Positions 1,486 to 18,131 of a DNA stretch of 38,664 bases are shown here, piece after piece. The translations under genes were made by a program, and so were the position numbers. Under the pieces are notes generated by a model, which was not told the origin of the DNA, did no database searches, and worked only from the letters and a program-made list of their open reading frames with translations. Positions within the stretch are counted from its first letter, which is position 1, and the number at the start of each line of letters is the position of its first letter. The DNA is from Betaproteobacteria bacterium (lineage in GTDB: Bacteria > Pseudomonadota > Gammaproteobacteria > Burkholderiales > SHXO01), in NCBI GenBank assembly GCA_009693245.1, contig SHXO01000020.1, forward strand, positions 1 through 38,664, given 5' to 3'.

Positions 1486-1737
1486 ATGGGCGATCGCTGG
1501 CAGTTGCAAGATGCCAAGAACCGGCTGAGCGAACTGGTACGCAAGGCACGAGAAGACGGGCCGCAGGTGATCACCGTTCATGGCACGGATGCCGTTGTCG
1601 TCGTGGACGCGGGCCAATTTCGTAAGCTCAGCCCGCGCAAGGGCACGCTGGTTGAATTTTTCCGCCGTTCGCCACTCGTGGGTATCGAACTCGATATCAC
1701 GCGAAGCCAAGATACCGGAAGGCCAGTTAAGTTATGA
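1486..1737 (+). CDS. Phd/YefM-family antitoxin
   Basis: An 83-residue protein starting MGDRWQLQDAKNRLSELVRK, the usual Phd/YefM opening (W-x-L/V-Q-x-AK-x-x-x-S-x-L). The GPQVITVHGTDAVVVVD strand segment that follows completes the dimerising DNA-binding fold. The C-terminal tail (residues ~55-83) is the part that usually wraps around and neutralises the toxin. The gene shares a 4-base ATGA overlap with the PIN-domain gene behind it, the standard order for a type II toxin-antitoxin operon, so the two are translationally coupled. Family members bind their own promoter, and GTCTAGAC at 1458-1465 is well placed for that. It starts at the only sensible ATG, behind AGAGGT. Confidence 0.85.
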   Translation: MGDRWQLQDAKNRLSELVRKAREDGPQVITVHGTDAVVVVDAGQFRKLSPRKGTLVEFFRRSPLVGIELDITRSQDTGRPVKL

Positions 1738-2159
1738 GCCACTTACTCGATACGTGCGTCATCTCTGAATTGGTCAAGCCCGAGCCCAATGAAGCTGTGC
1801 TTCGATGGTTATCCGAGCAGGACGAAGGCCGGCTTTTCTTGAGCGTTCTGACCATGGGTGAGTTGGAAAGAGGGATCGCAAAACTCACTGCCTCCCGCAA
1901 GAAGGCCAGTTTGGGAAAGTGGGTGAGGAGAGAGCTTGCACGGCGATTTGAAGACCGGATCTTGCCTATCGATCTGCCTGTCGCGCAACATTGGGGGATG
2001 ATCGCAGGTTCGTCCGAGCGCACGGGCCAACCACTTCCGGTGATTGACAGTCTCATATCCGCAACGGCTATGGCCCATGGATTTATCGTGGTTTCGCGGA
2101 ACGAGGCTGATTTCAAACGCTGCGGCGCAGAATGCGTGAACCCGTGGCGGGCATCGTGA
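1734..2159 (+). CDS. vapC: PIN-domain RNase toxin, VapC/FitB-like
   Basis: A 141-residue PIN-domain protein. Acidic and polar residues expected at the metal site are present: Asp in LLDTCVISEL near the N-terminus, Glu in TMGELERG, Asp in PVIDSLISATA, and the closing SRNEADF motif. The N-terminus (LLDTCVISELVKPEPN) is closest to the FitB-like branch of VapC toxins. These are Mg-dependent RNases that cut specific RNAs, often tRNA, when the antitoxin is lost. All catalytic positions I can judge are intact, so the toxin is probably functional. Start ATG 1734 overlaps the antitoxin stop. The cyclase remnant begins six bases after its stop on the other strand. Confidence 0.87.
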   Translation: MSHLLDTCVISELVKPEPNEAVLRWLSEQDEGRLFLSVLTMGELERGIAKLTASRKKASLGKWVRRELARRFEDRILPIDLPVAQHWGMIAGSSERTGQPLPVIDSLISATAMAHGFIVVSRNEADFKRCGAECVNPWRAS

Positions 2160-2164
2160 TCCCT

Positions 2165-2604
2165 TTACTCGCTTAACTCCGTAAGCAACGCTTTTGCATC
2201 CTTCAAATCCTTGGTGCCGAAGCCCTCGGTGAACCAGTCGTAGACTGGCTTCAACAGAGCGAGCCGGGGCGTTCGACTTGCGCGCTCTGCTCGTCGATCA
2301 GTTGAAGGGCATTGTGGAGGTCGCCTGAGTCAGTCATACGAGAGAGGGTTGAGGACACGCCAGGACCGGCCGGCACCTCCCCCAGGGACATCGCCTCACC
2401 GGCGGGTGCGGAGTCGGCGGTGTCCTTCCGTACCGTGGCCGCCTTGAGCAATTTCTTGCGATGCGCGAGGGAAACCGCTAGTTCATGGAGTTCCTCCGCG
2501 CTCAGGAGGCGCAATGCATCGAGACCGACGTCGTTCTCGGCGAAGATCCGCGCATATTGCTTGAGGCCCAGGCCGTCCAGCCAAATAGACAAGGGATCGT
2601 CCAT
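2165..2604 (-). pseudogene. Remnant of a SAM-domain class III adenylate cyclase (N-terminal domain fused to C-terminal tail)
   Basis: Reading leftwards from ATG 2604, the first ~60 residues are a sterile alpha motif like the one opening long adenylate/guanylate cyclases with AAA-type and TPR regions: MDDPLSIWLDGLGLKQYARI, then FAENDVG, LSAEELHELAVSL and AHRKKLLKA. The frame stops at 2251-2253. In another frame, 2266-2165 encodes [19 protein letters not shown] and ends [10 protein letters not shown], which matches the usual extreme C-terminus of the same family. The cyclase catalytic domain, the ATPase and nearly all TPRs are missing, and the two ends are out of frame. The simplest reading is one large internal deletion plus a frameshift. 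The remaining SAM-only ORF could still be translated. Together with the antitoxin/toxin pair upstream this is the least gene-dense part of the window. Confidence 0.75.
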
Positions 2605-2606
2605 TC

Positions 2607-2622
2607 TTCTCGATCGCGAGAA
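2607..2622. promoter_or_regulatory. Short inverted repeat before the cyclase remnant start
   Basis: TTCTCG and CGAGAA form a perfect 6-bp inverted repeat around ATCG, three bases upstream of the minus-strand ATG at 2604. It could be an operator for the cyclase remnant or for the divergent acyl-CoA dehydrogenase gene. Its minus-strand copy also supplies the GAGAAG that could act as a ribosome binding site. No promoter hexamers were convincing nearby. Confidence 0.25.
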
Positions 2623-2722
2623 TTGGAGATGAGAGATAGTACGCTCGCGCGGCGAGGGCCCGCACTTGGGCGAAAGAATCGTGGAACCGGCACCGGCCCG
2701 CGGCTCGGGCGATAATCGCGGA

Positions 2723-5284: not shown

Positions 5285-5919
5285 AACTCCATGGCTACTT
5301 TCGCAGTTCGGCGGCTTACAGGGTGCGCATTGCCTTGGCGATCAAGGGCCTGCCCTACGAGTACAAGAGCATCCATCTCATGAAGGGGGAACAGTATCTG
5401 CAGGAGTTCAGCGCCATCAGCCCGCAGAATCTGGTGCCGGTGCTGGAAGACGAGGGAGCGCTTCTCTACCAATCGCTCGCCATCATGCAGTACTTGGACG
5501 AAACCCATCCCAATCCCCCGTTGCTGCCCAAAGCTCCGGCGGAGCGCAATCGCGTGCGCTCGCTCGCACTCATTTGCGCTTGCGAGATCCATCCGCTCAA
5601 CAATCCGCGCGTGCTCAAATATCTGACGGAACAGTTTGGTGTGAGCGAAGAGCAGAAGAACCAGTGGTACGCCCATTGGGTGCAGACAGGATTTCGCGCT
5701 CTGGAGAAGCGTTTGGCCACGGAGACGTACACGGGCAAGTTTTGTCACGGCGACAGCGCGGGTTTTGCCGATTGCGTGTTGGTTCCCCAGGTGGCGAACG
5801 CGGTGCGATTCAAGGTGGACATATCCGCCTTCCCGACGATTCTTCGCATCAATGAAGAATGTTTGAAGCTCGAGCCGTTTCGGCAGGCCATGCCAGAGAA
5901 CCAGCCCGACGCGAGTTGA
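5281..5919 (+). CDS. maiA: Maleylacetoacetate isomerase (zeta-class glutathione S-transferase)
   Basis: A 212-residue GST-fold protein. It isomerises maleylacetoacetate to fumarylacetoacetate, or maleylpyruvate in related enzymes, using glutathione, in tyrosine or gentisate breakdown. The zeta-class active-site motif appears as FRSSAAYRVRIAL at residues 8-20, with the two serines and the arginine retained. The thioredoxin-like half continues through NLVPVLEDEG and the glutathione-binding YQSLAIMQYLDETHP. The C-terminal helical half has GDSAGFADCVLVPQ, as in MaiA. It is coupled to the CoA-ligase gene (ATGA) and to the following lipoprotein gene (TGATG). No fumarylacetoacetase or homogentisate dioxygenase is in the window, so pathway membership rests on the enzyme itself. 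Confidence 0.87.
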   Translation: MKLHGYFRSSAAYRVRIALAIKGLPYEYKSIHLMKGEQYLQEFSAISPQNLVPVLEDEGALLYQSLAIMQYLDETHPNPPLLPKAPAERNRVRSLALICACEIHPLNNPRVLKYLTEQFGVSEEQKNQWYAHWVQTGFRALEKRLATETYTGKFCHGDSAGFADCVLVPQVANAVRFKVDISAFPTILRINEECLKLEPFRQAMPENQPDAS

Positions 5920-7352
5920 TGCGGTTTCTCCTTCCATGGTTGGCGCTGGCCCTTGCCGGTTGTGTGCCGGCGCCCTTTTCCCGGCATCTGAGCGAGCGGG
6001 CGGACGCTCAGGTGCGAGAGTGCGCGCAGCTCTTTCGGCAAGTGGATACCATGGTGGAAAAAGCGGGCGTGAGGGACGGTGGCGAGGCCAGGATCAAGGG
6101 CTACCCCTATCTGCGAACGACGCGATTTCTCGCCTCCTTCATCGACAAGGCGGCCAAAGACCCGGAGAAAATGCAGTGGGTGGCTGCGCTTCGCCAGACC
6201 GATCTGAAGGCGCGGCACTATGAACTCATGAACGTCACCGGGCCAGGCGATGGGGCGCAGGTGCTCAAACGTTTGGACCAGTGCGGGGAATTGTTGGCTA
6301 AGGCTGACGCGGCAAACGATGTGGAATACGGCAACCTCAAGCGTGCGGTGGTTGTGCCGTCCGACTACCGAACATGGAAGCGAGCAATCGGGTTCTACGC
6401 CCTCACGAGAATTCCCTTTGCCTCGGGAGTGCGCGATTATCAACGCGACACGGAGAATATTTTTGGGACTGCCATCGAGAATCTCAAGGTGGAAGGAAAG
6501 CTGGTGCGCTACGGACCCGCCGCGGACGGGGCGCATGAAATTTCCGCCGGGTTACCTACCTACCCCGCGCCAGCACGTTCGGCGCGAGAGTTGGCGCGTT
6601 TATTCGAACGCAATGCACCTATTTTCGAGGTGGACGAGGCGGGAGATTTCGATCGCATCGGCGCACTCGCGTGGGGGCCCAAGGACCGCGTGGCGGCCGA
6701 TGCGAACTCGCCCACGGTCTATCATCGCGCGGCGTATACGCGCTACCAGGACCGCGTGTTGCTGCAACTGGTGTACAGCGTGTGGTTTCCCGCGCGGCCC
6801 AAGACGGGTTCTTTCGATCTGCTCGGCGGACATCTGGACGGTGTGATCTGGCGGGTGACGCTGGATGAGCAGGACCGCCCGCTGGTTTTCGACAGCATTC
6901 ATCAATGCGGCTGTTATCACCAGTTTTTCCCCACGCCGCGGGCTCGCCTCAAGCCTAAACCAGGTGGCTTGGATGAGTACGCCTTCGTGCCGCAAAAGCT
7001 CCCTTCCATCGGAGCGAAAGAACGGGTCGTCCTACGCATCGCTTCCCGTACGCACTATATTCAGCGCATTTCGCTCGTGGCGGATGACTCGCCCGTGGAG
7101 AGGACCTATACCTTCACCGATGACGACGATCTTCGGTCTTTACCCATGAATGGGAAGCGCCGCGGTGTTTTTCGGCCCGATGGCATCGTCCCAGGGAGCG
7201 AGCGCGGCGAGCGCTTCTTTTTCTGGCCCATGGGAGTCCCCAATGCAGGTGCCATGCGCCAGTACGGGCGCCACGCCACCGCTTTCGTGGGCAAGCGGCA
7301 TTTCGATGACCCCGGTCTGGCCGAGCGTTATTTCGCCATGGGTGACGAATGA
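5919..7352 (+). CDS. Conserved hypothetical lipoprotein with HxCxCxH motif
   Basis: A 477-residue protein I do not recognise as any named family. The N-terminus is a short lipoprotein signal with lipobox LALAGC, so Cys-15 is probably lipidated and the protein anchored in the envelope. The middle and C-terminal parts are well organised: LQLVYSVWFPARPKTG, then LLGGHLDGVIWRVTLDEQD, then DSIHQCGCYHQFF with His-328, Cys-330, Cys-332 and His-334 close together, and later ERFFFWPMGVPNAGAMRQYG. The His/Cys cluster suggests a metal site or a redox disulphide; this is inference. The start overlaps maiA's stop (TGATG) and the end overlaps the LOG-family gene (ATGA), so it is translated as part of this operon. 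The longer frame beginning at 5859 overlaps maiA and would lose the signal peptide. Confidence 0.8.
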   Translation: MRFLLPWLALALAGCVPAPFSRHLSERADAQVRECAQLFRQVDTMVEKAGVRDGGEARIKGYPYLRTTRFLASFIDKAAKDPEKMQWVAALRQTDLKARHYELMNVTGPGDGAQVLKRLDQCGELLAKADAANDVEYGNLKRAVVVPSDYRTWKRAIGFYALTRIPFASGVRDYQRDTENIFGTAIENLKVEGKLVRYGPAADGAHEISAGLPTYPAPARSARELARLFERNAPIFEVDEAGDFDRIGALAWGPKDRVAADANSPTVYHRAAYTRYQDRVLLQLVYSVWFPARPKTGSFDLLGGHLDGVIWRVTLDEQDRPLVFDSIHQCGCYHQFFPTPRARLKPKPGGLDEYAFVPQKLPSIGAKERVVLRIASRTHYIQRISLVADDSPVERTYTFTDDDDLRSLPMNGKRRGVFRPDGIVPGSERGERFFFWPMGVPNAGAMRQYGRHATAFVGKRHFDDPGLAERYFAMGDE

Positions 7353-16805: not shown

Positions 16806-18131
16806 TTGAAAGACACCGGTCTGTTTTCACGCCGCGAGCCCGAAGCCCCGCTGGCCGAGGCCATGCGGCCCCAGCGCCTGGAAGACGTGCTCGGCCAGCA
16901 ACACCTCGTGGGAGAAGGTAAGCCGCTTACGCTATGCGTGCGCTCTGGCAAACCGCACTCCTTGATCTTGTGGGGGCCGCCAGGGGTGGGCAAGACCACC
17001 ATCGCGCGCTTGCTGGCGGGGGCCTTCGATGCCGAGTTCATCGCACTTTCGGCCGTGTTCTCTGGCGTCAAGGAAATCCGCGAAGCGGTGTCGCGAGCCG
17101 AAGAGTGCTTGCAAGCCCAGGGCCGGCGCACCATTTTGTTCGTGGACGAAGTGCACCGTTTCAACAAAGCGCAGCAAGATGCCTTCTTGCCCTTCGTGGA
17201 GCGCGGGCTCTTCACTTTCATCGGGGCCACCACGGAGAATCCGTCCTTCGAGGTCAACGGCGCGTTGCTGTCGCGCGCCTCGGTGTACGTTTTGGAACCG
17301 CTGAAAGCGGATGATCTTTCTTTACTCATCGACCGGGCGTGCGAAACCGTTTTGCAGGGCTTGGTCTTTACCGCCGAAGCACGAGAAGCTTTGATTGCCG
17401 CCGCCGATGGCGATGCGCGGCGCCAGCTAAATTTCCTGGATCAGGTGGCACTAGCGGCGAAGACGTCGGCCAAGTCCGAGGTGGATCTGGACTTCCTGGG
17501 AACCATTTTGTCCAAGGCTCTACGCCGCTTCGATAAAGGAGGCGACGCGTTCTACGATCAAATCTCTGCTTTGCATAAGTCCGTGCGCGGCTCCAATCCC
17601 GACGCCGCGCTATATTGGTTCTGCCGCATGTTGGACGGCGGGGCCGATCCGCGCTATCTGGGCCGCCGCATCGTGCGCATGGCCAGCGAGGAAATTGGAT
17701 TGGCGGACCCGCGTGCGCTGCGTTTGACCTTGGATGCGTGCGAAACGTACGAACGCCTGGGTTCCCCCGAAGGAGAGCTGGCGCTGGCGCAAGCTTGTCT
17801 TTATCTTGCCTGCGCGCCCAAGAGCAATGCGGCCTACACCGCCTATAATCAAGGGCGCGAATTCGTGAGCAAGGATGCATCGCGCCCCGTCCCCGTGCAT
17901 TTGCGCAACGCCCCCACTCGCCTCATGAAACAGATGGGCTTTGGTAAGGAGTATCGCTATGCCCATGATGAACCCGAGGGTTACGCGGCCGGGGAAAATT
18001 ATTTCCCGGAAGGCATGAGTTCACCGCGCTTCTACCAGCCCAAGGAGCGTGGCCTCGAAGCAAAAATTGGAGAGCGTTTGCGATATTTGCGCGAACTCGA
18101 CGACCAAGCACTCAAAGACAAGAAAACCTGA
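16806..18131 (+). CDS. rarA: Replication-associated recombination protein A (AAA+ ATPase, MgsA/RarA)
   Basis: A 441-residue AAA+ ATPase related to clamp loaders and RuvB that acts at stalled replication forks. The N-terminal start PLAEAMRPQRLEDVLGQQHL is typical. Walker A is GPPGVGKTT and Walker B is ILFVDEVHRFNKAQQDAFLP. The sensor motif is FIGATTENPSFEVN. The C-terminal tetramerisation region has AALYWFCRMLDGGADPRYLG and FVSKDASRPVPVHLRNAPT. A TTG start at 16806 gives the family-like N-terminus; the first in-frame ATG (16863) would cut off the PLAE segment. It starts 18 bases after lolA and precedes serS by 9 bases. Confidence 0.92.
   Translation: MKDTGLFSRREPEAPLAEAMRPQRLEDVLGQQHLVGEGKPLTLCVRSGKPHSLILWGPPGVGKTTIARLLAGAFDAEFIALSAVFSGVKEIREAVSRAEECLQAQGRRTILFVDEVHRFNKAQQDAFLPFVERGLFTFIGATTENPSFEVNGALLSRASVYVLEPLKADDLSLLIDRACETVLQGLVFTAEAREALIAAADGDARRQLNFLDQVALAAKTSAKSEVDLDFLGTILSKALRRFDKGGDAFYDQISALHKSVRGSNPDAALYWFCRMLDGGADPRYLGRRIVRMASEEIGLADPRALRLTLDACETYERLGSPEGELALAQACLYLACAPKSNAAYTAYNQGREFVSKDASRPVPVHLRNAPTRLMKQMGFGKEYRYAHDEPEGYAAGENYFPEGMSSPRFYQPKERGLEAKIGERLRYLRELDDQALKDKKT

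Follow-up and report, generated by a model that had tools for sequence, protein, structure and literature searches.

Known SAM-cyclase proteins and the locus studied here

Multidomain proteins combining SAM, adenylate/guanylate cyclase and AAA domains have been described for root nodule bacteria (PMC4653623), and the relatives of the gene studied here share with them the Pfam domains PF00536, PF00211 and PF13191, to which a TPR region is added. As regards toxin-antitoxin (TA) genes, which are found next to this locus, protection of the surrounding DNA from deletion has been reported on plasmids (PMC6354349). The window, i.e. the whole stretch of DNA analysed (38,664 nucleotides), is one complete contig (C20) of a 3.0-Mb assembly with 130 contigs and 97% completeness. 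Like the proteins described in PMC4653623, the gene remnant located in this window has an N-terminal SAM domain, but it is devoid of the cyclase domain, the AAA domain and nearly all of the TPR region. Comparison of the sequences indicates that positions 2165-2604 very probably represent a pseudogene, the parent gene having encoded a signalling protein with SAM, class III nucleotide cyclase, AAA ATPase and TPR parts. As such it is a case of ordinary gene decay, in a type of gene already known, and among the papers retrieved by a literature search, judged mainly by their titles, no account of such a remnant was found. The features of the region are as follows:

1486..1737, plus strand: Phd/YefM-family antitoxin gene (Pfam E 4.9e-12; NCBIfam phd_fam E 3.4e-15)
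1734..2159, plus strand: PIN-domain toxin gene (Pfam PIN E 5.3e-17)
2251..2604, minus strand: 117-aa open frame containing SAM domain, linker and TPR scrap, ending with SLC and a stop past the second junction
2440..2586, minus strand: SAM domain, residues 7-55 (Pfam SAM_1 E 4e-10)
2365..2424, minus strand: linker of uncertain origin, holding the first junction within it or at its end
2263..2364, minus strand: C-terminal TPR-region scrap, in frame with SAM (60% identity over 35 residues to the copy in genome G385, E 1.5e-6; shuffle control)
2260..2266, minus strand: second junction (about 202 bases missing with respect to the G385 copy; frame shift; breakpoint placed within a few bases)
2165..2263, minus strand: C-terminal tail in another frame, ending with ALLTELSE and a stop (alignments and shuffle control)

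Composition of the remnant

The 117-aa ORF starts with the ATG at 2604 and reaches its stop at 2251; an alternative, longer in-frame start is present at 2859 and overlaps the divergent acyl-CoA dehydrogenase gene. The SAM domain that the initial annotation had placed on the minus strand at 2604-2420 was confirmed there by the Pfam SAM_1 match and was also recognised by SAM_2 (E 4.5e-9, residues 6-56), both scores being above the curated cut-offs. When compared with solved structures, this part resembled eukaryotic SAM domains, the best match being Caskin-1 (E 9.6e-7), whereas the NCBIfam scan assigned the 117-aa ORF to no family. With regard to membership of the SAM-cyclase-AAA-TPR proteins, the N-terminal SAM domain is present (Pfam SAM_1). 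The class III cyclase domain (PF00211) is absent, with eight Guanylate_cyc matches in the genome and none on C20. AAA_16 (PF13191) gave no match in the 117-aa frame, and the only AAA_16 match of C20 was located at 16938-17036, far from the remnant. Genome-wide, 37 AAA_16 matches were obtained, the best one with 40.9 bits, whereas the two full-length relatives that were tested reached 71.9 and 75.2 bits. The missing middle (cyclase and ATPase) was not found elsewhere in the assembly. Of the TPR region and the family tail, a 34-residue scrap and the last 32 residues are left, in different frames.

The ORF had initially been described as SAM-only; instead, it continues through the linker into the TPR scrap. 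Its residues 81-114 (2364-2263) matched the TPR region near the C-terminus with a score of 91, while 500 shuffles reached no more than 49, and weaker matches were obtained at the corresponding place in G003, G157 and others. The tail frame (2263-2165) encodes 32 residues followed by a stop. When it was aligned with 18 C-terminal sequences, the highest score was 135, the maximum across 500 shuffles being 52, which bears out the earlier observation of an out-of-frame family tail at 2266-2165. This tail also found the C-terminal end of another piece from the same genome (74% identity, E 2.3e-9).

Comparison with full-length relatives and position of the junctions

A search with the first 61 residues yielded 33 matches in 19 of the 399 genomes of the order (own genome included), 22 of them within open frames longer than 1000 aa and the other 11 within frames shorter than 600 aa. 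Twenty stretches were fetched, from which 16 long frames (1106-1197 aa), all picked for their SAM match, were used. The window tail was matched near the C-terminus by seven of these 16 frames at E <= 0.01 in the small database of fetched loci, and two of the seven, G002 (1141 aa) and G003 (1129 aa), belong to the genus of the window; all seven carry both ends in one protein. The proposal that both ends derive from one gene thus withstood the search for full-length relatives with N- and C-terminal matches. Both G002 and G003 showed SAM_1, Guanylate_cyc and AAA_16 matches, together with weaker TPR matches. Two full-length relatives also matched TIGR03903 (kinase/cyclase fusion), below its cut-off.

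The nearest relative found was the copy on contig C12 of G385 (L078), which is 49-53% identical in the SAM part, 60% in the TPR scrap and 81% in the tail. This copy belongs to another genus and differs from the window in that it keeps the whole length (about 3.3 kb), its frame being broken in that assembly.

In full-length relatives the SAM part, the scrap and the tail are located at about residues 10-80, 1010-1040 and 1100-1137, respectively; in the window the three parts are collinear and occupy 440 bases of a single strand. With the G003 protein as reference, the SAM part extends as far as residue 80 and the scrap starts at residue 1010, whereas only 25 codons lie between them in the window, and hence about 900 codons are missing at the first junction, with the frame kept. 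At the second junction, two DNA diagonals offset by 202 bases were visible against the G385 copy; the frame changes before the tail because 202 is not a multiple of three. This junction was placed by eye, its left side being traceable to about 2262 and its right side from about 2263. No convincing repeat was detected at the junctions, and none was longer than a few bases. As read from these alignments, the remnant has at least two junctions. The loss of about a thousand codons suggested initially was correct in so far as cyclase and ATPase are gone, with about 900 codons missing at the first junction, but it does not correspond to a single deletion. The parts are therefore ordered as in a full-length relative, with the middle missing and the frame changed, which is the pattern of a deletion remnant.

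As the simplest account, we propose that the locus would have started as a complete gene of about 1100 codons, within which at least two deletions would have occurred. One of them would have taken out the cyclase, the ATPase and the greater part of the TPR region (about 900 codons), leaving the frame open, and another would have removed about 200 bases, shifting the frame just before the tail. The deletions probably took place in situ, the second one may have been mediated by a few shared bases, and the resulting product would be without function.

Some observations count against the pseudogene reading. Internal stops are absent from both open stretches, which would mean that the deletions are of recent date or that selection acts on the SAM frame. 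In addition, a closer relative with an intact gene at the site was not found in 60 genomes or in ten loci around neighbouring genes, and for this reason deletion in place was not directly seen. A DNA search with 2150-2700 in the 60 genomes matched only the own genome, the arrangement being absent from the 59 others. Among the ten loci around relatives of the acyl-CoA dehydrogenase (six) and hemD (four), with a flank of only about 1.5 kb each and with the acyl-CoA dehydrogenase query rows left out, neither the SAM ORF, the tail, the Phd gene and the PIN gene nor any of the 16 full-length cyclases found a match at E <= 1e-3, and the ancestral site is therefore unreadable from them. A distant DNA search of 1400-2760 against a plasmid collection gave no matches. 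Elsewhere in the window, the plus strand contains a 497-aa open frame (5859-7352) with no Pfam matches at E <= 1e-4.

Other incomplete pieces in the same genome

No complete copy of the family was found in the assembly. Four further incomplete pieces, belonging to the same or a closely related family, were located:

C17:2-676: SAM domain and start of the cyclase, the piece running off the contig
C17:23789-25403: C-terminal part of about 540 codons in which the frame changes, front half gone, between metK-like and ahcY-like genes (names assigned by eye)
C130:136-558: C-terminal part of about 140 codons, interrupted by a TAG
C12:33951-34277: 109 codons matching residues 72-180 of a G119 SAM-cyclase at 81% identity, with a different N-terminus

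Since the assembly yielded no complete copy, the lineage seems to be losing the SAM-cyclase family, and this loss of large signalling proteins seems to proceed piece by piece. SAM_1 matched the genome twice, in the window remnant and at C17:497-664. A scan of genome contigs with the SAM-cyclase half from C17 found two loci. The piece at C17:2-676 could belong to an intact gene, with the contig ending inside it, which is a further point against the pseudogene reading. The piece at C17:23789-25403 resembles the window remnant in that the tail is shared (74%), it is also decayed and it is also near a PIN gene; unlike the remnant, it retains about 540 C-terminal codons.

A stretch of 126 bases from a CopG/RHH-type antitoxin gene was identical on C130 (L006:3-128) and C17 (L007:1230-1355); on C130 these bases run directly into the C-terminal part of the broken cyclase. 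The identity may stem from a duplicate copy, from strain variation or from an ambiguity in the assembly. On C12 (L092:4220-6284), two PIN toxin genes with antitoxin-like partners adjoin the truncated cyclase fragment, the first part of which appears zinc-ribbon-like by eye and is in another frame.

Proximity of the remnants to toxin-antitoxin genes

The Phd/YefM and PIN genes beside the remnant overlap by 4 bases and are predicted to form a type II TA pair. The PIN gene and the remnant are convergent, with 5 bases separating their stop codons. Decaying cyclase genes might be worn down by deletions as far as the neighbouring TA pairs, the loss of which would be counter-selected, and the scars would persist beside the pairs; this explanation is unlikely. 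A protective effect of TA systems on chromosomes was reportedly described by Szekeres et al. in 2007.

Eighteen PIN and four ParE matches were found in the genome (20 of the 22 above the cut-offs). Among the matches listed, the distances between Pfam matches were 45 bases in the window and 123, 502 and 1243 bases for other pieces, with none for C130, where an antitoxin fragment alone is present. Measured between gene borders, the toxin gene lies about 5 bases from the window remnant, about 100 from the left C17 piece (ParE), about 460 from the right C17 piece (PIN) and 100-200 from the C12 piece (PIN). With the window left out, a PIN or ParE match was located within 2 kb of three of the four pieces and within 500 bases of one, as compared with one and none, respectively, of the 37 AAA_16 loci used as control. 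Under random placement, the probability of at least three of four pieces falling within 2 kb was 0.00015 with 22 toxin matches, 0.0025 with 50 and 0.076 with 200.

These figures are post hoc, concern few loci and two toxin families only, and ignore contig ends. Moreover, the C12 piece differs at its N-terminus and its nearest PIN gene (protein scan E 3e-9) is absent from the genome-wide list. None of the 11 PIN matches in five other genomes was within 30 kb of a cyclase match, and one of the six other cyclases of this genome likewise had a PIN match within 500 bases. Among the 16 full-length relatives only one had a TA pair less than 1 kb away (the scan covered the shorter flanking ORFs, 28 out of 52, and such ORFs were present at 12 of the 16 loci), which fits the TA explanation and also simple chance. 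It may simply be that TA pairs and decaying genes occur in the same plastic regions. The closeness of the remnants to TA pairs is suggestive as a pattern of gene positions, and we doubt that TA pairs, by halting further loss, decide where in this genome the remains of large signalling genes persist. If they did, a scar next to a TA pair could be read as a record of TA action on the chromosome; should the closeness hold, it would offer a sequence-based test of whether chromosomal TA pairs shield their surroundings from deletion. This is the sole part of the locus deserving a wider look. As a separate observation, a cyclase-domain match with an in-frame TAG at G000:C106:1493-2537 (L087) lies 257 bases from a PIN match.

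Coding potential of the remnant and integrity of the assembly

The remnant had initially been considered either a scar or an expressed small protein. In the second case, the 117-aa SAM-linker-TPR frame would be a working product, capping or titrating SAM-mediated assemblies, for example. Features compatible with this are the open frame, the SAM match well above the cut-off, a start located as in full-length relatives and a 5' leader (2560-2660, minus strand) whose predicted fold is more stable than those of its shuffles (-40.1 kcal/mol, z -3.66). Against it, the last three residues are a product of the frame change, a consensus scan of 1300-2900 revealed no promoter-like site on either strand, and none of the 59 other genomes matched the arrangement at the DNA level. 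In addition, the genome holds one further SAM_1 match and hence at most one such SAM partner. The small protein, for which no positive evidence was obtained, appears very unlikely, and the scar is the better supported of the two options. The least probable explanation, an assembly error or a mixture of strains that joined the two ends of a gene intact in the organism, is in keeping with the division of the genome into 130 contigs and with the C130 piece opening with the 126 bases shared with C17, but the junctions are 2.2 kb from the left contig end with no repeat beyond a few bases, and the missing middle does not appear at another place in the genome.

In practical terms, the pseudogene reading warns annotators against entering this locus as a SAM protein or a cyclase. 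Finally, G148, G215 and G385, which form one genus of another family of the order, contained 21-25 cyclase-domain matches per genome and up to eight SAM matches, several of the latter in short frames; gain and decay of the SAM-cyclase family may be common in that genus.
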